The notes beneath the pieces are model-generated. The model was not told where the DNA came from, ran no database searches, and saw only the letters and a program-made list of their open reading frames with translations. A stretch of 64,000 bases of DNA, from assembly GCF_900157305.1 (NCBI RefSeq), contig NZ_LS974202.1, forward strand, positions 992,001 to 1,056,000. The letters are read 5' to 3'. A program made the position numbers and the translations under genes. How positions within the stretch are numbered: the stretch's first letter is position 1; every line of letters starts with the position of its first letter. Below are positions 19,514-48,170 of this stretch, piece by piece. Source of the DNA: Mesotoga infera. Lineage in GTDB: Bacteria > Thermotogota > Thermotogae > Petrotogales > Kosmotogaceae.

Positions 19514-20536
19514 ATGAAGAGAACGATTCTGGTTATGATGATTATGGTTCTGGTATCTGTTTTTGCGTTTGCAGTATCTCTTGAAAACAAGCTGATCATC
19601 TACACCTGCCATGGTGAAGAAATGCCCGGGGCCTTCAAGCAGTACTTTGAAGAGGCTTATCCCGGTGTAACCGTTGAGTTCCTGGCGATGGGTGCTCAAG
19701 ACATGTATGACCGCGTCAAAGCCGAACGCAGCAATCCCCAGGCGGATATTCTATGGGGTGGACCGACAAATATCTTCCTGCTTGAAAAGCAAGATGGACT
19801 ACTCGAGAAGTATGTTCCATCTTTTGACAGATCTGTTCCTAAAGAGTATAAAGACGTCGATGGGTTTTTCTACGGTCAATTCCTTACACCTCCAGCGATA
19901 GTCTATAACACTGAAACTCTTGCCGAAAAGGATGTGCCTCAAGACTGGGACGACTTACTAGATCCAAAGTACAAGGGTCAAATAACGATACGCTATCCTC
20001 TAGCTTCGGGAACGATGAGAACGGTTTACTCTGCGATGATATGGAGGTACTACAAAGTCGATGGCAATCCCCAGAGAGGTTACGAATGGCTTAAAAAGCT
20101 CGATGCAAATACCAAAGATTACACTTCACACTCTTCGGTAATGTTCACGAACCTTGTCAGGGGACTTGCCAAGATAAGCATATGGAACTTCTCGGATGCA
20201 ATGCTACAGAAAACTCTGAATGGATATCCATTCGGTGTTGTACTCCCCAAAAGTGGAACTCCTGTAATAGTAGACAATATAGCTATTGTAAAGAACGCCA
20301 AGCACCCTGAAGCTGCAAAGGCTTTTGTCGAATTCGTCGGGACGAAACAGTCATCAGTGATGATGGCACACCAGTATTTCAGAATACCTGTAAGAACCGA
20401 TGTCGATAAGGCGGTTCTTCCTTCATGGATGAAGGTCGAGATAGTGCCCATGGACATCGATTGGGTGGCTTTTGCTGAACTCTCCCCAATGTGGATGGAG
20501 TACTGGGACGAGAACATAAAGGGAAGAGGCAACTGA
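19514..20536 (+). CDS. ABC transporter binding protein, AfuA/FbpA-like
   Basis: An exported protein of 340 residues. The signal peptide is MKRTILVMMIMVLVSVFAFA, then the type II binding-protein fold starts with KLIIYTCHGEEMPG. Motifs such as DILWGGPTNIFLLEKQDGLL and NTETLAEKDVPQDWDDLLDP belong to the group annotated as iron(III) or polyamine binding. The tyrosine cluster expected for iron binding was not found. Beside sugar enzymes it is more plausibly a sugar or sugar-phosphate binder, like AfuA of Actinobacillus. A strong GGAGG site precedes it and a hairpin follows. Confidence 0.85.
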   Translation: MKRTILVMMIMVLVSVFAFAVSLENKLIIYTCHGEEMPGAFKQYFEEAYPGVTVEFLAMGAQDMYDRVKAERSNPQADILWGGPTNIFLLEKQDGLLEKYVPSFDRSVPKEYKDVDGFFYGQFLTPPAIVYNTETLAEKDVPQDWDDLLDPKYKGQITIRYPLASGTMRTVYSAMIWRYYKVDGNPQRGYEWLKKLDANTKDYTSHSSVMFTNLVRGLAKISIWNFSDAMLQKTLNGYPFGVVLPKSGTPVIVDNIAIVKNAKHPEAAKAFVEFVGTKQSSVMMAHQYFRIPVRTDVDKAVLPSWMKVEIVPMDIDWVAFAELSPMWMEYWDENIKGRGN

Positions 20537-20545
20537 TATATTTTG

Positions 20546-20568
20546 GCCGGGTACCTTGAGTACCCGGC
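20546..20568 (+). other. Intercistronic stem-loop after the binding-protein gene
   Basis: A perfect 9-bp stem GCCGGGTAC/GTACCCGGC with a five-base loop and no T-run. As after dctP and the oligopeptide binding protein, it probably stabilises the upstream message so that binding protein outnumbers the membrane subunits. Confidence 0.65.
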
Positions 20569-20598
20569 ATATTTGTAATCAATATTGGAGGGAGAGCA

Positions 20599-29220: not shown

Positions 29221-30753
29221 ATGAGAAAGTTATTTGTGTTCCTGCTACTTTCTACCTGTTTCTTCGCGGCTTTTGCGCTCGCGGCTCAAACACTGGTGGT
29301 CGCCTATATGGGCGATCCTATATGGTTCAATCCTTGCGCCAAAACCGACGACTACGGCGCGGCTATTAACAGAAACATCTTCGATCAGCTAGTTGCACAG
29401 GATGTCAATTATGATCTGGTTCCCCAGCTGGCGACCAGTTGGGAAGTCTCCGAAGACGGTAAGGAATACACGTTCTATCTGAGAAAAGGTGTGAAGTGGC
29501 ATGACGGGGAACCCTTCACTTCCAGAGACGTTAAGTACACGCTCGAATCTATCGTGACAAATAAGGGTTCGGCTTACAACAACGTGGCGATGATCACGGA
29601 AGTTGTCTGTCCAGATGATTACACCGCCGTGGTCAAGTTGCAGGATCCATACGCTCCGTTTATTCCCTTCCTTGCATGGTACGGAACGCAGATAATGCCG
29701 GCCCACCTGTACGAAGGAACTGACTGGAACGACAATCCGGCCAACCAGAAACCGGTGGGCACGGGACCATTCAAATTCGTCGAGTGGGTCAAGGGAGACC
29801 ATGTGACTCTCACCAAGAACGAAGAGTACTGGGGTGAGGGACCGTATGTAGATAGGCTGATCTTCAAGATCATTCCCGATCCAAACACCGCTCTGCAGGC
29901 TTTCCTGAATGGCGAAGCCGATATCGACCAGAACAGGCCTGGCTTCAATACACTTTCGATCCTCAAGATGAATCCCGAGGTCAACGTTGTGATCAATCCC
30001 TCTCCGAGTAGATACTATCTCGGATTCAACCTCACCGATCCAGCAAGACCGACGACCAACCTCAAGGTCAGGCAGGCTATCTCCTGCGCGATAAACAAAC
30101 AGGCCATCGTCGATAAGGTTCTCGGCGGTTTTGGAGGGATCGGTGAATATTTCTACACTCCGGCCATTCCATGGGCTGTCGATACTAATGTTAAGGCGGC
30201 CCTTTACGACCCGGCCAAAGCCGACAAACTGCTGGACGAGGCGGGTTACACAAGGGGTAACGACGGCTGGAGGTTCGCGCTCGATCTTCTCTACTTCCAG
30301 GGCGCCGATTGGACTGACATGGCCGCCGTTATCAAGGAGAACCTTGAAAAAGTCGGTATAAAGGTCAACCTGGGCGAATACGAGATCGCCACATGGATCG
30401 AGAAGGTTCTGAACGCGCACAACTACGATATCGCCCTTCTCAACGGTTTCCAGGGCCCCGATCCGGCGAACCTCACAATGAGGGTGGCGACCGGCGGCAG
30501 TCTAAACATAATGGGCTATTCGAACGAAGTCGTCGATTGGAACCTCAAGGAAGCGGCCAAGATCTCTGATATCGAGCTGAGGAAGCCTTACTATTACGCG
30601 GCCCAAGCGCAGCTGGCGGCAGATGCTCCCTTCGTTCCACTGGCCGAAGTTTCATACATTTACATCTTCAAGACTTACGTCGAAGGAATGGATATAGAGA
30701 ATCCGGGAAAGATAGGTACCGGAAGTTACGCGTTGACCAAGCTCAATTTCTAG
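29221..30753 (+). CDS. Oligopeptide ABC transporter binding protein (DppA/OppA-like)
   Basis: A 510-residue exported protein. The signal peptide is MRKLFVFLLLSTCFFAAFALA. It is followed by an SBP_bac_5 domain with WEVSEDGKEYTFYLRKGVKW, DPYAPFIPFLAWYG and PVGTGPFKFVEW, which are standard family blocks. ATG 29221 follows GGGGAGGTGC; the frame runs further up without a site. The downstream order is permease, permease, ATPase, ATPase, peptidase, a complete oligopeptide-type import operon. Some family members in Thermotogota bind oligosaccharides, so a sugar ligand is not excluded. Confidence 0.92.
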   Translation: MRKLFVFLLLSTCFFAAFALAAQTLVVAYMGDPIWFNPCAKTDDYGAAINRNIFDQLVAQDVNYDLVPQLATSWEVSEDGKEYTFYLRKGVKWHDGEPFTSRDVKYTLESIVTNKGSAYNNVAMITEVVCPDDYTAVVKLQDPYAPFIPFLAWYGTQIMPAHLYEGTDWNDNPANQKPVGTGPFKFVEWVKGDHVTLTKNEEYWGEGPYVDRLIFKIIPDPNTALQAFLNGEADIDQNRPGFNTLSILKMNPEVNVVINPSPSRYYLGFNLTDPARPTTNLKVRQAISCAINKQAIVDKVLGGFGGIGEYFYTPAIPWAVDTNVKAALYDPAKADKLLDEAGYTRGNDGWRFALDLLYFQGADWTDMAAVIKENLEKVGIKVNLGEYEIATWIEKVLNAHNYDIALLNGFQGPDPANLTMRVATGGSLNIMGYSNEVVDWNLKEAAKISDIELRKPYYYAAQAQLAADAPFVPLAEVSYIYIFKTYVEGMDIENPGKIGTGSYALTKLNF

Positions 30754-30768
30754 CAGGCTGAACTTTCA

Positions 30769-30815
30769 GGGGCGGTCTTTCCGCAGCCCGGACGGATCGC
30801 CCCGCCTGTTTTTTT
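30769..30815 (+). terminator. Terminator-like hairpin between binding protein and permease genes
   Basis: GGGGCGGTC pairs with GATCGCCCC across a structured loop, followed after a few bases by seven or more T. It probably terminates most transcripts after the binding-protein gene and lets a fraction through to the permeases. Confidence 0.6.
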
Positions 30816-30829
30816 CTGGAGGTGTTACT

Positions 30830-37856: not shown

Positions 37857-39737
37857 ATGAGCTTGAAGAGACTCCTCTACGGTAGCATCGTACCACGGGG
37901 TTGGCTCTTTGAAGAGGCAACGCGAAACTTGAAGGGCCTGGTCGGAGAACTCGACGATCTTGTTCCGGGAATAATCAGGGACGACGAGATCTATGGCCGC
38001 AACAGATTGACCGGTGCTGTGAAATCGAAAGATCTCGGGACCGTGGCCCAGGATCAGGAGTGGGAGGTACAGTACCTCTGGTGGAACAGTGAGTCGCAAT
38101 CCAACTGGCTGGACGGACTGATAAGACACGCCTACCTGGTCGGAAATGCCATATACATAGAGAAGGCGAAGAAGTATTTGTACAGGGTTCTTATGGCGCA
38201 GGACGACGACGGGTACATTGGTATCTACGCCAGAGACCTCAGATTCGACTTCAAAGGAGAGAACGGCGAACTCTGGGCCCAGGCGACCTTCCTTCGCGCC
38301 GCTCTGGGTTATTATGAACTCACCGGAGAACGTGAAGTACTCGAGAGAGTGATGAGAGCTTTCGATCTTACGATGAAGGTCTATTCGGAGAGAAACCCCT
38401 TCGACCTCGAGAAGGCTTACGCCGGCGCCAGTCACGGACTGGCCTTTACCGACGTCTGTTACGGACTCTTCGGATTGATAGGGGATGAGAAGTACCTCCA
38501 TTTTGCCGGCCGGCTGGTCGATTTCTACAACCGGGCCCGGCTTTCGGAGGAAGACATAAGGGAGGACAACCTCCTCGATTACGATTACAGATTCAAAGGG
38601 CACGGTGTTCACACCTACGAAGGTTTGAGGTCTTTGATCATAGCCAACATGCCAGACGGACGGTACAACCGCGCAATAGAAGCGTATCTTCACAGATTGA
38701 ACTTCATCACGACTCCTTCTGGTGCTCCAATAGGCGATGAATGGATCTGGGGAAGAAGCGCCGATGCTACGGAGACGGGGTACGAATTCTGCTCGATCCA
38801 GGAGCTACTCCACAGCTATCTCACTCTTCTCGAAGCGACGGGCGATCTCCGCTGGGCCGACAGGGCCGAATGGCTTTACTACAACGCGGCACACGGGGCC
38901 GTGAATCCCTGCAAAAGCCAGATAGCTTACTGCAAGAGCGACAATTCGTACGCAATGAACGGTCATGCCGGCGGAAGGGGAAGTGAGAACGATCTGCGCT
39001 ACAAATACTCTCCCGCTCATCAGGATGTAGCCGTCTGTTGTGCGCCGAACGCCGGCAGGGTACTTCCCTATTTCACCGGTTCGATGTACATGAAGAGTAG
39101 TCACGGCCTTCTAGTGACGCTCTACGGACCATCTAGAGTCGAGACGTCGGTCGATGGAATCGCCGTCACCCTTGAACAGATCACATCCTACCCCTTCGAC
39201 TTGAACATCGAACTTCGCGTAACCGCCGCCGTGCGAAGCGACTTTAAGATCCTTCTCAAAAAACCTTTCTGGGCCGAAAAGATGAAAGTTGAAGCCGTCG
39301 GTGCAAAGATCGAAGATTACGTTGATTCGATCGCGGTTTCGAAAGATTGGAAACAGGACAGAATACTCATTGAGTTCACAGGCAGAATAAACGAGCGCCT
39401 TGATCTTAAGGGCGAAGTCTATTATTCTTACGGACCACTCCTTTACGCGATGGAAATCGAATCGATAGAAAAGACCGGACGCCTTTATGGCAAGGGCTTT
39501 GAAGACAGCCTCTTCCTGCCGAGAGACCGCTCCTGCCTTGAACTTTGCGCAACGGAAAAGACACTCGAAAGCCTTACCGTATCAAGCGATAAACATTCCG
39601 GGGACTTCACAGATCCGCCCCTGGTGAGCGGAAAGTTTCTGGATAGAAGATCCGGCGAAGAAAAGACTGTATCCTTGAAACCAATAGGCTCGACGATACT
39701 CAGAAAGACAACCTTCAAAAAGTGTACATTTCTGTGA
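37857..39737 (+). CDS. GH127-family protein (beta-L-arabinofuranosidase-like, DUF1680)
   Basis: A 626-residue cytoplasmic glycosidase with an N-terminal (alpha/alpha)6 barrel and C-terminal beta domains. The metal and catalytic region ATETGYEFCSIQELL near residue 305, and VAVCCAPNAGRVLPYF near residue 387, supply the Glu and three Cys that form the zinc/nucleophile centre in GH127. The natural substrate may be an arabinofuranoside or a related furanoside. No signal peptide is seen, so its substrate must be imported. It starts right behind the PAP2-like gene with SD GAGGTGAG. Confidence 0.87.
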   Translation: MSLKRLLYGSIVPRGWLFEEATRNLKGLVGELDDLVPGIIRDDEIYGRNRLTGAVKSKDLGTVAQDQEWEVQYLWWNSESQSNWLDGLIRHAYLVGNAIYIEKAKKYLYRVLMAQDDDGYIGIYARDLRFDFKGENGELWAQATFLRAALGYYELTGEREVLERVMRAFDLTMKVYSERNPFDLEKAYAGASHGLAFTDVCYGLFGLIGDEKYLHFAGRLVDFYNRARLSEEDIREDNLLDYDYRFKGHGVHTYEGLRSLIIANMPDGRYNRAIEAYLHRLNFITTPSGAPIGDEWIWGRSADATETGYEFCSIQELLHSYLTLLEATGDLRWADRAEWLYYNAAHGAVNPCKSQIAYCKSDNSYAMNGHAGGRGSENDLRYKYSPAHQDVAVCCAPNAGRVLPYFTGSMYMKSSHGLLVTLYGPSRVETSVDGIAVTLEQITSYPFDLNIELRVTAAVRSDFKILLKKPFWAEKMKVEAVGAKIEDYVDSIAVSKDWKQDRILIEFTGRINERLDLKGEVYYSYGPLLYAMEIESIEKTGRLYGKGFEDSLFLPRDRSCLELCATEKTLESLTVSSDKHSGDFTDPPLVSGKFLDRRSGEEKTVSLKPIGSTILRKTTFKKCTFL

Positions 39738-40087: not shown

Positions 40088-40918
40088 ATGAACGAGCTGA
40101 AGATACTGAGGGAATTGGGTTTCTCGCTCAACGAGGCTAAATGTTATATTGCACTCCACAAGAGCAGCCCAATGACCGGTTACGAGGTCGCTAAAAAGGC
40201 CAAGATAACCCGGACCATGGTCTATGACATCTTGCAGAGGCTGGAGAGAAAGGGCAGCATCAATGTGATAGAGGGTAACCCGAAGTTGTACTCGGCCGTG
40301 AGCTACAAAAAACTTATCGCCTCTCTCAGGAAGGATTACACGGAAAAGCTCGACGATCTCGAGAGTTCCCTGGAAAAGATCACTCGCGAGGTGGATGCCG
40401 ACAACTATATACTGAACCTCTCCAACCACGCCGAGATGCTCAACCTCATCGCGAACGCCATCAAAGAGGCGAAACGGGAGATCTATCTCTCGCTCTGGGA
40501 TTCAGAGGCCGCACTCTTCGAAAACGAGCTTAGAGAGGCCAACGGAAGGGGTGTGAAGATATATATTTTCTCCTTTTGCAAGATGCCCTTCGATTTCGGC
40601 GTCCAGTTCACCTACAAGATGAAAAACGCGAACATGAACTTTCCAAGGCGCAGGATAATAGCCGTGTTTGACAGAGAATTCATGGTTATGGGCGAGGGGA
40701 ATTCCAACATAAACGAGATAGGTATAACCACGCGCAATATCATGCTTATGGAGATGTCTATCGACCAGATGCTTCTGGATATTATACTTCTCTCCATCTT
40801 GAGGAAGGGAGGGTACATCTGGGACGGGATCGATGTCGGGGAGTACTACGACAACGTCCAGAAATTTTTCAAATCAATAGAGTTGCCGGTCGATCTGCCT
40901 TTGAGGGTAGATGAGTGA
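40088..40918 (+). CDS. TrmB-family transcriptional regulator
   Basis: A 276-residue regulator. The N-terminal winged helix (LRELGFSLNEAKCYIALH, then ITRTMVYDILQRLERKGSI) is typical of sugar-specific TrmB proteins. A coiled segment leads to a PLD-like sensor part (AIKEAKREIYLSLWDSEAAL). TrmB proteins sense maltose, trehalose or related sugars, and in this locus an alpha-glucan breakdown product is the natural inducer. The gene opens the operon-like row through 48.1 kb. Confidence 0.87.
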   Translation: MNELKILRELGFSLNEAKCYIALHKSSPMTGYEVAKKAKITRTMVYDILQRLERKGSINVIEGNPKLYSAVSYKKLIASLRKDYTEKLDDLESSLEKITREVDADNYILNLSNHAEMLNLIANAIKEAKREIYLSLWDSEAALFENELREANGRGVKIYIFSFCKMPFDFGVQFTYKMKNANMNFPRRRIIAVFDREFMVMGEGNSNINEIGITTRNIMLMEMSIDQMLLDIILLSILRKGGYIWDGIDVGEYYDNVQKFFKSIELPVDLPLRVDE

Positions 40919-40933
40919 TAAGGAGTGAATACA

Positions 40934-42007
40934 GTGTTTAGGGAATTGGATCATTATAAACCCGATATCGACAAAACGATAGCGATGATGGAAAAGACTT
41001 ATGAAGACGCGCTTAGCCACAGCGGAGGCAACGTCACGATAAGGGCCCTCCCCGGGTGCGACGTGGAGCATTATTCCAGGCTCGATCTCACCCGCTACAA
41101 TTACAGGGACGATATCGGCCTGTACGCGCGCGACCTTTGCGGTCTTATGAGCGAATCATTCGAGAAACGCAGAGCCGTCGATGACAACATGATACCTTCG
41201 GTTTCACCGGTTCTGGGGATCGGAGATTATTCGGCCTTCGTATGCGGGGACATAGAGTTTCACAAAGATACGAGCTGGTCAAAACCGGTACTGGGAGAGA
41301 TAAAGGATTTCCGGAGGCTGCCCGAGATCGGAACTTCCTTCTGGTACGGGAACTTTCTGGACATCTGCGAGGAGATACTGAAACTCTCCTCCGGCGCCGG
41401 CATTCCATTCATGAAGGGCTTCTTCTCTCCGCTCGATCTTGCAGCCGCACTCAGGGGAGAGGCGATCTACACCGATTTCTACGAGTCTCCCGAAGAGCTG
41501 CACGAACTCCTCAATTACTGCGCCGATGCAACGATAAAATTCGCCGAAGACGTTTACGCGCTGGCCAGGAGGTACCTCAGTGGTAGCAAGTATGGGATGT
41601 GGTTGATCGATGAATGCATATATATGTCGGAGGATATCGCCTGCATGATATCTCCCAGGTTGTACAGGAAGTTCTGCGCGCCATACACACAGAGAGTCAT
41701 CGATCATTTCGGCACCGGTCATATGCATTGTCATTCAAGAGCGCTTTACCTGGTGAAAGAGATTTGTTCGCTCGAGAAGGTGGCCAGCCTCTGGATCGCC
41801 ACCGATCCCAATCAGCCGAGGCCGATAGACAATATAGGACGACTCGTGGAAGATTCGCGCGGTGTTTGTCTTGCCATCGACTGCGATTCCTTCGATGAGA
41901 TAGTGGCGAACATGGAGACGATGAAAAGGGGGAACGTCTCTATCTGCCTCCCGGTAGAGGGAGTGGAAGAGGCTGTGAGGGTTACCGAGGAGTTCGAAAA
42001 GCTCTGA
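40934..42007 (+). CDS. Uroporphyrinogen decarboxylase (URO-D)-family protein
   Basis: A 357-residue TIM-barrel protein of the URO-D/MtaA/CmuA group. Recognisable blocks are GIPFMKGFFSPLDLAAALRG, DECIYMSEDIACMISPRLYRKF, the His region GHMHCHSRALYLVKEI, and the C-terminal NVSICLPVEGVEEAVR. Members include methyltransferases and heme enzymes; those beside sugar transporters have no known function. GTG 40934 follows AAGGAG by eight bases; GTG 40925 is too close to the site. It sits between the TrmB regulator and the transporter, so it should take part in or modify the same sugar pathway. Confidence 0.75.
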   Translation: MFRELDHYKPDIDKTIAMMEKTYEDALSHSGGNVTIRALPGCDVEHYSRLDLTRYNYRDDIGLYARDLCGLMSESFEKRRAVDDNMIPSVSPVLGIGDYSAFVCGDIEFHKDTSWSKPVLGEIKDFRRLPEIGTSFWYGNFLDICEEILKLSSGAGIPFMKGFFSPLDLAAALRGEAIYTDFYESPEELHELLNYCADATIKFAEDVYALARRYLSGSKYGMWLIDECIYMSEDIACMISPRLYRKFCAPYTQRVIDHFGTGHMHCHSRALYLVKEICSLEKVASLWIATDPNQPRPIDNIGRLVEDSRGVCLAIDCDSFDEIVANMETMKRGNVSICLPVEGVEEAVRVTEEFEKL

Positions 42008-42032
42008 AGATCGTGTGCGAGGGGATAGTCCT

Positions 42033-44345
42033 ATGAGAGGGTTCAGGTTCGTAGTCATTGTTCAGGCCGCCTTGCTGCTGGGTGCGACGCTTTTCGCGGC
42101 TCCAGGCGGTGACGGTTCGACCATACGTATCTGGTTCAGCCATATCGAACCGGAAAACCTTGCCATGGTCGCAATCGCCGAGGAGTTCACCTCTCTTACA
42201 GGGATCAAGGTCGAAGTGATTGGCCGACGCTCAATATTCGACGCTCCCAGAGATCTGGCTAACAATGCGGAACTCGACGATCGGCCGGACATAATCCTGA
42301 TGCAGGCCCCGGATATTGGCAACATGGTCGCTTCCGGGCTGATCGTGCCCCTGAAAATAGACGACGAACTCAGAAAGCGTTATCTCGATGCGACTTTCGA
42401 AGCCTTCACCTATAACAACAGATGCTACGGTATAGGTTATTCACTAGATACTTCCGGACTCATATACAACAGGGACCTCATAAGTGAGTCGGAGCTGCCA
42501 GAAACCTGGGACGACTTTTTCAGGATCGCTGAGGCTCTCACTTTGAGAAACGGCGATGGGAAGATAGTTCAGTACGGTACCCTGCTCAACCCAAAGGACA
42601 TGTGGTTCAACTACCCTATAATAAAAGACTACGGAGGCTACTACTACGGCAAGGCACCCAACGGCGATTACAATCCCTACGACGTCGGTTTGGACAATGA
42701 CTGCATGCTAGATTACGTGAACAAAATGAAGGAGCTGCAGAAGAAGGGATTGACACTTGCCAACGAAAACGGTACCGAAAGCCATATATCGGCCGAATTC
42801 GCCAACGGGAGGGCCGCCATGATACTCTACGGTCTCTGGAACGCGTCGATCTACCAGAGCATGGGTATCAATTACGGCATCGCTCCTCTGCCTAAAGGGC
42901 GAAACGGAGAGGTTTCCAAACCACTGGCCACGGTTCAGGGTTTTGTAGTTAACAGGTTCACCAGAAACATGGAGGCTGTGGAGAGCTTTCTGGAGTTCGT
43001 GCTCAGGGACGAGAACCAGCAAAAGCTTATCGAGGCCGGTAACAGGGCCGAAAAGAAGACGGGCGAGAGGAACCCTTGCAATATCTCGGTCATCGAGAGC
43101 GATTACGTGAGCAAGGACCCGATACTTTCATCTTTGAGCGCAATAGGATTCAACTGTGAACCCTTCCCGAACATACCCGAAGGCACGATCTGGTATAACT
43201 ACACCTCGACGGCCTTCAGAACTATTTTCTACGGGGACAAGTCGGGGAATCAGGTAGATGCGAAAGAGAAGTTGACCGAGCTTGCCAACAAGATCAGGGG
43301 CGATGTGGCCGTCATGAACAAAGTCCCGGAGAAGATAGAGATACCCTCCGGCTATCTTGTCTTTTTCACCTCGCTCGCCGCGGCAGCCTTCGTTTTTTTA
43401 CTGGTCTGGCGAAGGCGGCTCGCCTCAACGGACACGGTAGGGGATAGTTATGGCAGAAAGGAGAGCTTCGTGGCCTGGCTGATGTTGGCACCGCTCTTCT
43501 TTCTCCTTTCGATGTTCTACATCTTCCCCGTCTTTCACAACATATACCTCTCGCTGACCAATTACAGTGGCATCAATCTGAGAGACTACGGAATCGTCGG
43601 GTTTTCGAACTATGCGGAAATCTTCTCGACAGGTATCAACGGCCTGATATCGATGATAATCTGGACCGTCACCTTCGCGGCCACGGTTGTGGGGCTCTCT
43701 TTTCTGGCCGGGACAATGCTGGCGGTGGTCCTGGATAAAGTCAAGGTGAGAATTGCCAAGATCTACAAGATCGTTTTCATACTCCCCTGGGTAGTGCCAA
43801 GCGTTATAACACTCCTGATGTGGCGTGGAATGCTTGAGAGCGACGGGCTCGTGAATCGTATGCTCGGCATACTGGGCATGCCATCCGTTCCGTGGCTCAC
43901 GAGTTCCTTCTTCGCAAAGTTGAGCTGTATATTCGTCATGACCTGGTTTTCCTTTCCATACTTCATGGTTATCTCGTCGGGTGTGTTGAAGTCTATACCG
44001 AGAGACTACTACGAAGTGGCGAAGATAGCCGGAGCGGGCAACACATTCATATTCTTCAAGATCACAATGCCGCTTGTGTTCAAAGCTCTTTTTCCCATGA
44101 TGATAATGTCGTTCATAATGCAGTTCAACCAGTTCGGAGTCTATCTATTGACCCAGGGAGGTCCCCCGGGCGATGTCCTCGGCTCTCCCGGATCGACCGA
44201 TCTGCTGATAACCTATGTTTTCAATACGGCCTTCAACACCAAGAGATACTCGCTGGCGGCTGCATATTCGGTGATAATCTTCTGTTTCGTCGGGTTGTTC
44301 GCCTTCGTATCTCTGAAAATAGGAAAGAGAAAGATGTACGAGTAA
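42033..44345 (+). CDS. Binding protein fused to a MalF-type permease
   Basis: One 770-residue chain with two transporter parts. After an N-terminal signal or anchor (FVVIVQAALLLGATLFA) comes a complete SBP_bac_1-type domain to about residue 425 (STIRIWFSHIEPENLAM, GIAPLPKG). A membrane helix (SGYLVFFTSLAAAAFVFLLV) leads to a MalF-type permease with about six helices and the EAA loop EVAKIAGAGNTFIFFKITMP. The ATG follows GAGGGG. The reading frame is continuous, with no sign of a lost stop. It pairs with the MalG-type protein that follows; no ATPase gene is present in the locus. Confidence 0.88.
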   Translation: MRGFRFVVIVQAALLLGATLFAAPGGDGSTIRIWFSHIEPENLAMVAIAEEFTSLTGIKVEVIGRRSIFDAPRDLANNAELDDRPDIILMQAPDIGNMVASGLIVPLKIDDELRKRYLDATFEAFTYNNRCYGIGYSLDTSGLIYNRDLISESELPETWDDFFRIAEALTLRNGDGKIVQYGTLLNPKDMWFNYPIIKDYGGYYYGKAPNGDYNPYDVGLDNDCMLDYVNKMKELQKKGLTLANENGTESHISAEFANGRAAMILYGLWNASIYQSMGINYGIAPLPKGRNGEVSKPLATVQGFVVNRFTRNMEAVESFLEFVLRDENQQKLIEAGNRAEKKTGERNPCNISVIESDYVSKDPILSSLSAIGFNCEPFPNIPEGTIWYNYTSTAFRTIFYGDKSGNQVDAKEKLTELANKIRGDVAVMNKVPEKIEIPSGYLVFFTSLAAAAFVFLLVWRRRLASTDTVGDSYGRKESFVAWLMLAPLFFLLSMFYIFPVFHNIYLSLTNYSGINLRDYGIVGFSNYAEIFSTGINGLISMIIWTVTFAATVVGLSFLAGTMLAVVLDKVKVRIAKIYKIVFILPWVVPSVITLLMWRGMLESDGLVNRMLGILGMPSVPWLTSSFFAKLSCIFVMTWFSFPYFMVISSGVLKSIPRDYYEVAKIAGAGNTFIFFKITMPLVFKALFPMMIMSFIMQFNQFGVYLLTQGGPPGDVLGSPGSTDLLITYVFNTAFNTKRYSLAAAYSVIIFCFVGLFAFVSLKIGKRKMYE

Positions 44346-44368: not shown

Positions 44369-45202
44369 GTGGGTTGGACAAAGGCGAAGACCGGCAGGGT
44401 ATTTATCCATCTATTTCTGGCCGTGCTGGCCGTTATTACCGTGATACCCTTTTTCTACGTTGTGATCATATCCTTCGGTAAGAACGTCATAGATACCGGC
44501 GCCTTCGCGATCACGGAGCTTACGCTGGACAACTACGCGAGACTTTTCGGCGAGACGCGCTTCGTGAACTGGATAGTGAACTCGCTCCTTCTAGCAGCGG
44601 TTACGATGGTTGTGGCCGTTTTCGTCGTCTCGATCTGTGTTTATGCCTTCTCGAGGTTGAGATTCTACGGTAGAGTCGGACTGTTCAATTTCATCCTGCT
44701 GGTTCAAATCTTTCCATTGACACTGTCGATGGTCTCTATCTTCAAGATCTTCGTAGCACTCGGCCTTCTCAACAAACTGGAAGGATTGATTCTTGCCGAC
44801 TCGGCCTTCGCTTCGGCCGGCCTAGTGATACTGGCCAAAGGGTACTTCGACACTATCCCTTACTCGCTAGATGAAGCGGCTATGATCGATGGGGCCGGCA
44901 AGTTCAAGATTCTGACCAGTATCACGCTGCCTCTGGCAAAACCGATGATAGCCATCGTTGCAATACAGAGTTTCGTAATTGCTTACAACGAATACGTCAT
45001 CGCCAGCACTGTGATGACTCAAAAGCTAGAAGCCATGCCACTGGCAGTTGGACTGCAGAGTATGATAGTCGGCCAGTTCGGGATCAACTGGAGCGTTTAC
45101 TGCGCTGGCGCGGTGCTCGGAAGCATACCCATGCTCGTGCTGTTCTACTCGCTTCAAAAGTACTTTATAGGCGGATTGACCGAGGGAAGCGTGAAGTCAT
45201 AA
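44369..45202 (+). CDS. Sugar ABC transporter permease (MalG-like)
   Basis: A 277-residue permease with about six helices. The start GTG 44369 is read from GCGAGGTGG ahead and the start WTKAKTGRVFIHLFL; the longer upstream frame overlaps the fusion gene. The EAA loop is DEAAMIDGAGKFKILTSITL, and it ends in the MalG-type tail QKYFIGGLTEGSVKS. It forms the channel with the fused MalF half and must borrow an ATPase encoded elsewhere. Confidence 0.92.
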   Translation: MGWTKAKTGRVFIHLFLAVLAVITVIPFFYVVIISFGKNVIDTGAFAITELTLDNYARLFGETRFVNWIVNSLLLAAVTMVVAVFVVSICVYAFSRLRFYGRVGLFNFILLVQIFPLTLSMVSIFKIFVALGLLNKLEGLILADSAFASAGLVILAKGYFDTIPYSLDEAAMIDGAGKFKILTSITLPLAKPMIAIVAIQSFVIAYNEYVIASTVMTQKLEAMPLAVGLQSMIVGQFGINWSVYCAGAVLGSIPMLVLFYSLQKYFIGGLTEGSVKS

Positions 45203-45214
45203 AAGGAGACAGAG

Positions 45215-46912
45215 ATGGAGAGAGCCGCTATTTACCACATATCCGAACACAACTACGCCTACGCCGTCGACGGCGACACTCTGGCTGTTAGATTGAGGGC
45301 GAAGAAGAACGATCTGGAGAGAGTCGTGGTCCATTACAAGAACCTCTATGACCACACATCCCGGCCAAAAGAACTCTCCATGGAGAAGATACTCTCGGAC
45401 GGGATCTCCGATCTGTTCGAGGCGAGAATCATTGTGAAGGAAAAGAGATTTAAATATTACTTCGAGCTTTTTTCACCGGGGGAGAGAATCTTCTACACTT
45501 CCGACGGCTTTCTCGAGTCCGTCGATGAGAAGAACTGCTTCTTCTACCCTTACATAAACGACGACGATATTTTCAGGCCGCCCTCATGGGCCGAAGGGGA
45601 GATTATTTACCAGATATTCGTCGATAGATTCTACGACGGAGACCCTTCCAACAATCCGCCTGGCACGATCCCGTTCGGTACGCCTCCGGGCAGAGAGAGC
45701 TACTACGGCGGAGATCTAGAGGGGGTCATCCTGAAACTCGATTACGTGGCCGGTCTGGGGGCCAAGATCATCTATCTAAACCCAATCTTTCTCTCGAACT
45801 CTTACCACAAGTACGACATAGTCGATTACTACAGCATAGATGGCACTTTTGGAAAGGCCGAAGACCTCGCGCGGCTGGTGGAGGCGGCACACGAAAGGGG
45901 TATGAAGGTGGTTCTAGATGGAGTCTTCAACCATTGCAGTTCGTCCAATCCTCTTTTTATGGATGTCCTCGAGAGACAGTCGGAATCAAAATACAGGGAC
46001 TGGTTCTGTATAAAACGCTTCCCGATAGACGCGAGCGGCAAGAATTACGATACTTTCGCCGGCCTCGTTCCCGGGATGCCGCGACTGAACACGTGCAACC
46101 CCGAGGTGATACGTTACATAACCGATGTCGTTCTCCACTGGACTAAGCTCTTCAAACTCGACGGCTGGCGCCTCGACGTCGCCGACGAAGTATCGCACTC
46201 TCTCTGGATAAATCTCAGGAGAGAACTGAAGGCCCTCTCTCCGGACATTCTCTTGATCGGGGAGATATGGAACCATTCCTCCCGGTGGTTACAGGGGAGA
46301 GAGATGGACACGGCCACCAACTACAAGTTCATGAGGGCGCTGCACGAATTCGTCGCGGGCAAGATAGAGGCGCACTCATTCTGGGAAAGGGTTAGCGCCA
46401 ACAAGATGCTTTACAGATCCTGTCTGTACAACTATCTGGTCAATCTGGTGGGCAGCCACGACACAACGAGGTGTAGAACGATCCTGGGAAGCGATGAACT
46501 CCACGTTCTGGCGATGGCCGTCAATTTGGCATTCGAGGGCATGCCGCTGATTTATTACGGAGACGAAGTCTGCATGGAGGGTGGTTTCGATCCGGATAAC
46601 CGCAGAGCGATGAAATGGGAAGACGTGAATAGCGATTGCGCGAGAAGGATAGGAGAGCTGTCACGTTTCAGGGCGGGGAGTATCGTACTGAAGAAAGGTT
46701 CAATTACCCCCATAGAGGTCGGCCGGAGAATTCTGGCCTTCTGCAGGGAGTTCGAGGGGGAGCGGATTTATTTCGTGGCCAATTTCGATGGGAGAGAGTG
46801 CGTTCTCGAAGGTCCCTGGAGAGACGCACAAGTGAAACTGGGGGAGGGTTCTCTCGAAGACGGGAGACTCACACTCGAGAGCGGGAGATATGTCTTACTG
46901 GGCTATAAATGA
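45215..46912 (+). CDS. GH13 alpha-amylase-family enzyme (cyclomaltodextrinase/neopullulanase-like)
   Basis: A 565-residue cytoplasmic enzyme. It has an N-terminal beta domain (about 1-120, CBM34-like position), then the catalytic barrel starting EGEIIYQIFVDRFYDGDP. The four GH13 regions are DGVFNH, GWRLDVADE (nucleophile Asp), LLIGEIW (acid/base Glu) and LVGSHDTTR (third Asp). A C-terminal beta domain ends LESGRYVLLGYK. It should cut maltodextrins, cyclodextrins or pullulan fragments taken up by the adjacent transporter. Start 12 bases after the MalG gene with AAAGGAGA. Confidence 0.92.
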   Translation: MERAAIYHISEHNYAYAVDGDTLAVRLRAKKNDLERVVVHYKNLYDHTSRPKELSMEKILSDGISDLFEARIIVKEKRFKYYFELFSPGERIFYTSDGFLESVDEKNCFFYPYINDDDIFRPPSWAEGEIIYQIFVDRFYDGDPSNNPPGTIPFGTPPGRESYYGGDLEGVILKLDYVAGLGAKIIYLNPIFLSNSYHKYDIVDYYSIDGTFGKAEDLARLVEAAHERGMKVVLDGVFNHCSSSNPLFMDVLERQSESKYRDWFCIKRFPIDASGKNYDTFAGLVPGMPRLNTCNPEVIRYITDVVLHWTKLFKLDGWRLDVADEVSHSLWINLRRELKALSPDILLIGEIWNHSSRWLQGREMDTATNYKFMRALHEFVAGKIEAHSFWERVSANKMLYRSCLYNYLVNLVGSHDTTRCRTILGSDELHVLAMAVNLAFEGMPLIYYGDEVCMEGGFDPDNRRAMKWEDVNSDCARRIGELSRFRAGSIVLKKGSITPIEVGRRILAFCREFEGERIYFVANFDGRECVLEGPWRDAQVKLGEGSLEDGRLTLESGRYVLLGYK

Positions 46913-46974: not shown

Positions 46975-48114
46975 ATGGGAAGAAAATTGCTTAGAGTCTT
47001 TGGACTGGCTGTGGTCCTGTGTATGCTGCTGGGTTCATCCACCTTGCTGTCACAGAGCTATTACCTCGGCACGAGTGCCAACGGTTATCAGGTGCCGCGT
47101 GACGGCGGTCTCAAACTCGAGCCGATACCGGGCAAAGAGAATTGGTACGCGATTACGATCGATTTCAACGAAGACAACAGGGATCCGATGTACGACGGCC
47201 ATTACTACAAAGTCACAGACGGGACGTGGAATGCCGACGGTTGTTGGGGAGTGGATAACTACGCCTTTCAGCCGGCACCGGTGAAGAAGCTGAAGGACGG
47301 TACGGTGGTCGGCCTGGGTTCGATCTATATCCAGGAGAACTGCAGGCTCCAGATACTGTTCGATGCTAATACCAAAACAATCTATGACGACTACCTCCAG
47401 AGATTCCCGACGCCGAGGATCTACGGAGATTTCAACGAAGCGATGGGTAGAGGCGCCAACTGGAGCATGACGGACGAAAGTGCGCTGGTGCTTACCGATC
47501 CTAACGCCGACGGTGTATTCAACGGCTTCTACAAGTTGCCTGCCTATACCGGAAGCGGAGACGGCTACATGATGGTAACGGTTCTGTCCACCAGGTTCAA
47601 CACGCAGTATTATTTCTTCGGGGCCGTCGAGCAGTACAAATTCGACGGAACGCCTGCCGGTATGGGCATGGCGAGTTATCTAAAGCCTCTGGTCGATACG
47701 ATCTACGAATTCCAGTACGACGGTTCGACCCACGTAACAACCTTTACAGAATGCGTGACCGATCAGGTTGTGCAGCTTCCCTTGCCTGTTGTATACGGGG
47801 ATTTCAATGGCTGGAACATAGAGGGGCCCAAAGCCATCACCCTCGCGAAGGATGGAGAGAACACATACTCGACAGTTCTGAAGCTTCCGGCTTACACCGG
47901 CGAAGGATCGGGCTACATGATGCTGGTATGTCTCTCCAAAAAGTTTTACAACGACCAGTGGGGAATGAGATGGGGAGCGGAAGAGCAGTACATATTCGAC
48001 GGAACCCGGGCCGGAATGGGCCAGGTCAGCTATCTAAAACCGTCTGCGGAGACCTCTTACAAACTAACCTACAACTCCCTGACTCACGTAACCACAGTCG
48101 AAGAAGTGAAGTGA
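46975..48114 (+). CDS. Secreted beta-sandwich repeat protein, possibly glycan-binding
   Basis: A 379-residue exported protein. The signal peptide is MGRKLLRVFGLAVVLCMLLG. At least two similar units of roughly 110-120 residues follow a related N-terminal part. Each begins PRIYGDFNEAMG or PVVYGDFNGWNIEG, carries a KLPAYTG..GYMM strand, and closes with YLKP and THVTT. The GDFNGW start is common in E-set and CBM20/48-type starch- or glycogen-binding domains. At the end of the alpha-glucan locus it may hold polysaccharide at the cell surface. Family not firmly identified. Confidence 0.75.
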   Translation: MGRKLLRVFGLAVVLCMLLGSSTLLSQSYYLGTSANGYQVPRDGGLKLEPIPGKENWYAITIDFNEDNRDPMYDGHYYKVTDGTWNADGCWGVDNYAFQPAPVKKLKDGTVVGLGSIYIQENCRLQILFDANTKTIYDDYLQRFPTPRIYGDFNEAMGRGANWSMTDESALVLTDPNADGVFNGFYKLPAYTGSGDGYMMVTVLSTRFNTQYYFFGAVEQYKFDGTPAGMGMASYLKPLVDTIYEFQYDGSTHVTTFTECVTDQVVQLPLPVVYGDFNGWNIEGPKAITLAKDGENTYSTVLKLPAYTGEGSGYMMLVCLSKKFYNDQWGMRWGAEEQYIFDGTRAGMGQVSYLKPSAETSYKLTYNSLTHVTTVEEVK

Positions 48115-48132: not shown

Positions 48133-48170
48133 AGGCCCGGCTGGGTACTACCCACCCGGGCCTTTTTCTT
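48133..48170 (+). terminator. Terminator of the alpha-glucan locus
   Basis: AGGCCCGG-CTGGGT pairs with ACCCA-CCCGGGCCT around a short loop, then TTTTCTTTT follows. It lies 19 bases after the last stop. Confidence 0.88.

Follow-up and report, generated by a model that had tools for sequence, protein, structure and literature searches.

In Mesotoga infera, a maltodextrin-type substrate-binding protein and a six-helix sugar permease are encoded as one continuous polypeptide. Its gene occupies positions 42033–44345 of the window, the 64,000-nucleotide stretch of contig NZ_LS974202.1 analysed here, and the genes of the importer cluster described below lie on the plus strand. As the original prediction had proposed, it is a single open frame of 770 codons joining a binding protein, a membrane helix and a permease; it starts with ATG, with a GTG at 42015 as another possible start. 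Pfam recognizes both halves, the binding domain as SBP_bac_1 (residues 44–330; 2.2e-34; 120.3 bits, above the curated cut-off of 26) and the permease as BPD_transp_1 (CUT1 permease; residues 560–756; 1.1e-13; 51.8 bits against 26.4), and both domains of a MalE-MalF fusion are present in one frame. The covalent fusion is confirmed; the kind of arrangement is known, and here it forms a conserved case, with full-length relatives in many assemblies. The protein is quite probably the tethered-receptor subunit of a CUT1 (maltodextrin-type) importer for alpha-glucans, fused once and spread between phyla together with its gene set.

The fused protein begins with a signal peptide region that has no lipobox (residues 1–29; 42033–42119), followed by the maltodextrin-type binding domain (residues 30–428; 42120–43316), which is delimited by Pfam, NCBIfam, fold matches and the structural model. 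A short extracytoplasmic linker (residues 429–438; 43317–43346), placed by junction comparison and model, leads to one joining membrane helix with a basic cluster, WRRR (residues 439–466; 43347–43430), and then to a six-helix MalF/UgpA-type permease lacking a P2 loop (residues 475–770; 43455–44342; profiles and model). The AlphaFold model has a mean pLDDT of 75.1 and places helix 439–466 between the binding domain and the permease, the latter being poorly resolved at residues 578–608, 615–624 and 699–722 (below 50).

The permease had been called MalF-like, which holds for its core. A long periplasmic P2 loop is a feature of E. coli MalF. The NCBIfam MalF equivalog (NF008232) scores 180.3 against a cut-off of 392 and is matched only at profile positions 265–518, which indicates that the N-terminal part of MalF and its P2 loop are missing from the fusion; in the AlphaFold model the first two core helices are separated by no more than residues 508–534. 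The MalE equivalog (NF007011) likewise stays below its cut-off (145.9 against 291), and the best NCBIfam matches below threshold are to MalF in the permease half, and to GanS and MalE in the binding half. Elsewhere in the genome (one contig, 2,965,660 bases) there are two MalF-like permeases whose length, 586 and 517 codons, could accommodate P2, and they are accompanied by free binding proteins. The fusion is the only one of its kind found there among 13 loci read; long open frames at other binding-protein/permease pairs were considered as further fusions, and the DNA shows separate genes. Some other permease matches of this genome (L013:2829-5108, L015:3432-5465, L017:2945-6709; frames of 759, 677, 447 and 803 codons) lie far above the usual length and carry large insertions.

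Separate genes in all relatives had been named as an outcome that would undo the prediction, and this is not what the relatives show. Homologous fusions of full length number 24 and belong to Thermotogota, to Izemoplasmatales/Acholeplasmatales-type bacteria and to Bacillota: 19 come from a scan of named contigs, to which the window itself and four further loci are added; identities across independent assemblies range from 46 to 90%. The contig scan gave 25 loci in all, the remainder being three contig-end fragments, two close unfused pairs and one distant unfused pair from Paenibacillus. The suggested search in Thermotogota, made with the junction only (window 43170–43700), recovers this fused frame from six genomes out of 103, three of them among the 10 genomes of the window's genus. 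With a permease-only query the same six fused matches and no unfused ortholog appear in those 103 genomes. The class of the genome carrying the unfused pair L055 has matches in at least 4 of 391 genomes (three fused, one unfused), the order around an Izemoplasmatales genome in at least 11 of 90 (10 at fused length, one fragment), and two further surveys in at least 1 of 398 and at least 13 of 395; these surveys overlap one another and the contig scan, and their counts are minima. The fusion is no Thermotogota speciality, the majority being found in Izemoplasmatales/Acholeplasmatales-type and other Bacillota-like genomes. The relatives are nearly all metagenome assemblies, and their records name Kosmotogaceae, Thermotogaceae, Izemoplasmatales, Acholeplasmatales, Haloplasmataceae, Mollicutes and Bacillota. 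The Izemoplasmatales and Acholeplasmatales lineages have no cell wall. A Cetobacterium plasmid match (96% coverage) was discarded as a fusion, being two annotated genes, and phage and viral collections contained no relatives.

The junction is where fused and unfused forms differ. The joining segment of about 50 residues has one hydrophobic helix (mean hydropathy 1.76–3.13) followed by 4–10 K/R residues in all 24 fusions. Its mean identity to the window is 21%, whereas the binding domain reaches 59% and the permease 61% (means over 22 of the 23 other fusions, L034 omitted), so that its character is conserved and its letters are not. The two nearest unfused relatives, L052 and L055, encode the two proteins in separate genes, and their binding protein is a lipoprotein with a lipobox (SGC/AAC) whose stop codon falls right at the start of the fused linker. 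Their permeases align from about window residue 476–477 to 765–766 and have no joining helix. Such a helix would be topologically needed in the fusion because the binding domain ends outside and the six-helix permease begins inside. Among the 24 fused signal regions a crude lipobox pattern occurs once, in L053, within the hydrophobic core. Two ideas on the origin of the junction were abandoned. A trade-off in which the fusion replaces the P2 loop is not supported by the L052 and L055 permeases, which have about the same length and also lack a P2-sized insert, and derivation of the joining helix from MalF TM2 (a weak match of residues 444–513 to the genome's own MalF, 834897–835121) is not supported by the nearest unfused relatives, which are without the helix.

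In a tree of the concatenated halves the fused forms all group together (98/97), and their sister is the unfused pair (100/97). This tree was rooted on three unfused importers with long branches, so the rooting is weaker than the support value. Each single-half tree requires one change for the label 'fused', with unstarred support of 92 and 91, and the permease half places the two unfused rows apart. The Thermotogota are split over two places of the tree; a single Thermotogota clade is not rejected (p 0.147), and a Mollicutes-type clade excluding Thermotogota is not firmly rejected (p 0.076). The best reading of these sequences is that one fusion event would have been followed by transfer of the gene set between phyla, likely into Thermotogota. 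In the genus the distribution is patchy: in all five genomes read of the seven without the fusion, the Fur-Znu flank that borders the cluster on its right is preceded on the left by something else, and no clean insertion junction was found in this empty-site comparison. The GC content of the cluster is similar to that of its neighbours and gives no sign of recent import.

The fusion gene stands in a compact cluster. Upstream are a TrmB-family sugar-sensing regulator (40088–40918; Pfam, NCBIfam) and UroD1 (40925–42007), a protein of the uroporphyrinogen-decarboxylase superfamily in which H268-x-H270 replaces the H-x-C motif. Downstream follow the MalG-type partner permease (44369–45202; Pfam, NCBIfam), a GH13 enzyme of cyclomaltodextrinase/neopullulanase type with an N-terminal Ig-like domain (45215–46912; Pfam, NCBIfam) and an exported repeat protein (46975–48114). 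Folding places a strong, terminator-like hairpin followed by a T run (48133–48160) after this last gene. No ATPase gene lies next to the fusion. A GH127-type enzyme is encoded just upstream of the cluster (37857–39737). The order UroD1-fusion-MalG-GH13 is found in 23 of 24 loci, L104 being cut by a contig end, and the gene of the exported protein comes next in 20 of 24 (one extra gene intervening in two of these), the contigs of the other four ending first. TrmB and UroD1 also precede the genes of both unfused relatives. In some Mollicutes-type loci carbohydrate-esterase-type genes (SASA, putative esterase) are located in or beside the operon (L039:11759-13054, L044:15005-15775).

The likely cargo, judged from sequence and predicted structure, would be alpha-gluco-oligosaccharides. 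The binding domain matches the folds of maltotetraose-bound T. maritima MalE2 and of a cyclo/maltodextrin-binding protein, in agreement with its sequence; the GH13 neighbour is cyclomaltodextrinase-like, below the curated NCBIfam cut-off; and the exported protein, which has no Pfam or NCBIfam match, has a predicted fold like starch-binding SusF (5.8e-8) and the X25-2 domain of Sca5 (3.8e-6), the TM-scores over the whole length being low. In Mollicutes-type genomes the exported protein is a lipoprotein with more repeats.

A working scheme can be proposed on this basis. The signal peptide would export the binding domain, and helix 439–466 would cross back with its basic end in the cytoplasm, providing an N-in start for the six-helix permease. 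The fusion would pair with the MalG-type subunit and presumably with a shared ATPase encoded elsewhere. The exported protein perhaps hands alpha-gluco-oligosaccharides to the binding domain, which once loaded would dock on its own channel and deliver the sugar, and the GH13 enzyme would cut the imported oligosaccharides inside. Historically, a lipoprotein binding protein and a neighbouring permease would have been fused once, a membrane helix taking the place of the lipid anchor, and the gene set with the fusion would then have spread between Bacillota or wall-less lineages and Thermotogota.

The unexpected pairing of starch-sugar uptake with corrinoid (vitamin B12-type) methyltransferase genes is a larger find than the fusion itself. 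Of the 24 loci, 15 have UroD2, 14 a corrinoid protein and 13 RACo; Pfam or NCBIfam models support the corrinoid protein, RACo, DUF2284, a PocR-type regulator and a MtaA/CmuA-like UroD3 in these loci. In the window's genome four scattered places encode a UroD2 relative (65% to L031_UroD2), a corrinoid protein (47–50%), a UroD3-thioredoxin protein (38%) and RACo (35%), the last two identities being modest enough to leave orthology uncertain. The RACo gene, whose match includes one TGA, has an intact frame of 596 codons, and the TGA is probably its own stop codon. UroD-superfamily proteins joined to a thioredoxin-like domain also occur in L032:2229-3614 and L081:3684-5057. The imported alpha-gluco-oligosaccharides are possibly O-methylated, the methyl part being the conjectural one. 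A tentative proposal, for which the odds are clearly against at present, is that the operon serves an O-methylated alpha-glucan pathway in which methylated maltodextrins would enter by way of the starch-binding-like protein at the surface and the tethered-receptor importer, and import and GH13 cleavage are followed by removal of the methyl group by UroD1/UroD2, corrinoid protein and activase as a one-carbon source.

Somewhat more probable, though still short of even, is an ordinary maltodextrin importer whose methyltransferase-type neighbours are unrelated to the substrate, UroD1 being a passenger. The binding domain, the GH13 enzyme and the exported protein all indicate plain alpha-glucans, and in all three loci of the window's genus UroD1 alone remains in place, with no other corrinoid genes adjacent. 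However, UroD1 lies directly upstream in 23 of the 24 fused loci (the 24th is contig-cut) and does so in both unfused relatives too, 20 of the 24 stretches contain one or more of UroD2, corrinoid protein and RACo, and a UroD2 relative has been retained elsewhere in the window's genome.

The fixed 1:1 ratio of binding domain to channel claimed for the fusion can fairly be inferred from the single chain. In the window, an (A)GGAG sequence is followed after 6 nt by an in-frame GTG at 43470 (residue 480; 43460–43472), a possible internal start near the permease start of the unfused relatives. Internal initiation there could change the ratio in the window's species, giving two products, the full fusion and a free permease, with a ratio below 1:1 or mixed complexes. 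This is improbable, since of 20 fusions examined only the window and its closest relative L034 combine a start codon here with a Shine-Dalgarno-like site, the other 18 lacking this combination. The site is encoded by K-E residues belonging to a common protein motif and may be a coincidence. The free binding proteins elsewhere in the window were said to be boosted by hairpins. Strong hairpins do follow both ABC binding-protein genes that were folded, those ending at 20536 (window 20537–20598; z -2.1) and at 30753 (window 30754–30829; z -3.6), and none of this strength is found directly 3' of the fusion gene (z +1.4).

An improbable alternative assigns the methyl chemistry to sulfur or selenium, as has been proposed for type 1 mlp clusters, the importer then bringing in a methyl-thio or methyl-seleno sugar. 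Type 1 mlp clusters comprise three UroD-superfamily proteins, a corrinoid protein and a RACo-type activase, and the published account links His-Cys-Cys zinc sites with S/Se chemistry, and sites where a carboxylate or another group takes over with O-methyl chemistry (PMC10418091). The gene set here resembles them. A type 1 cluster is marked by Mlp2 and Mlp3 together with a corrinoid protein and Ram/RACE; in several fusion loci UroD2 and UroD3, which may or may not correspond to Mlp2 and Mlp3, occur with a corrinoid protein and RACo. In the window these genes are not adjacent. In UroD3 two Cys are invariant in 11 of 11 sequences and the His of H-x-C is kept in 9 of 11 (two of 13 rows end before the site). 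Against the His-Cys-Cys rule, all 22 UroD1 sequences have H-x-H, and UroD2 keeps H-x-C but lacks the third Cys in the 14 sequences, out of 15, that reach the site, so the zinc-site motifs of both differ from those of type 1 mlp; and nothing related to sulfur or selenium stood out among the neighbouring genes that were identified. The motifs lean to O-demethylation by UroD1 and UroD2 with a thiol-type UroD3. The text of PMC10418091 mentions no ABC transporter, permease, carbohydrate or glycoside, and a literature search, mostly outside subscription papers, for corrinoid enzymes in connection with sugar uptake or O-methylated sugars turned up no description of this gene set (other sources: PMC8276074, PMC7756565, PMC10458862, PMC11212667 and PMC9045158). 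Finally, an assembly or sequencing artefact concealing a stop codon is refuted by the relatives, there being no stop at 43330–43450 and the same fused frame recurring in 24 loci of many assemblies.

Unfused L052 and L055 set against the 24 fused loci offer a natural before/after pair for receptor tethering, with the topology-solving helix only in the fused forms, and the link of a probable alpha-glucan importer to corrinoid methyltransferase genes points to a possibly new substrate class. If the O-methylated pathway is real, a corrinoid-dependent sugar O-demethylation system would be shared by wall-less bacteria, Bacillota and Thermotogota.

Among known systems, E. coli MalEFGK2 has free MalE and a long P2 loop. 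The window's importer shares its MalE- and MalF/MalG-type domains and alpha-glucan neighbours, but its binding domain is fused and its permease lacks P2. GlnPQ and OpuA also have a tethered receptor, a fixed ratio and a high local concentration; they are amino-acid and osmolyte systems, whereas the fusion described here has a CUT1-type sugar permease and a binding domain of another family. The nearest precedent is a MalE-MalF fusion said to come from Bdellovibrio bacteriovorus. This maltose/maltodextrin transporter has been characterized (Licht et al., 2019, Res Microbiol 170:1-12), and a sentence citing that work describes supercomplexes with MalE 'fused to MalF' as transport-competent. The claim that such a fusion is unusual for the MalF type may be true, but its kind is already published. 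The two are alike in having a MalE-type binding domain covalently joined to a MalF-type subunit; the family described here differs in its corrinoid-enzyme context and, if the precedent does come from that organism, in occurring in other phyla.
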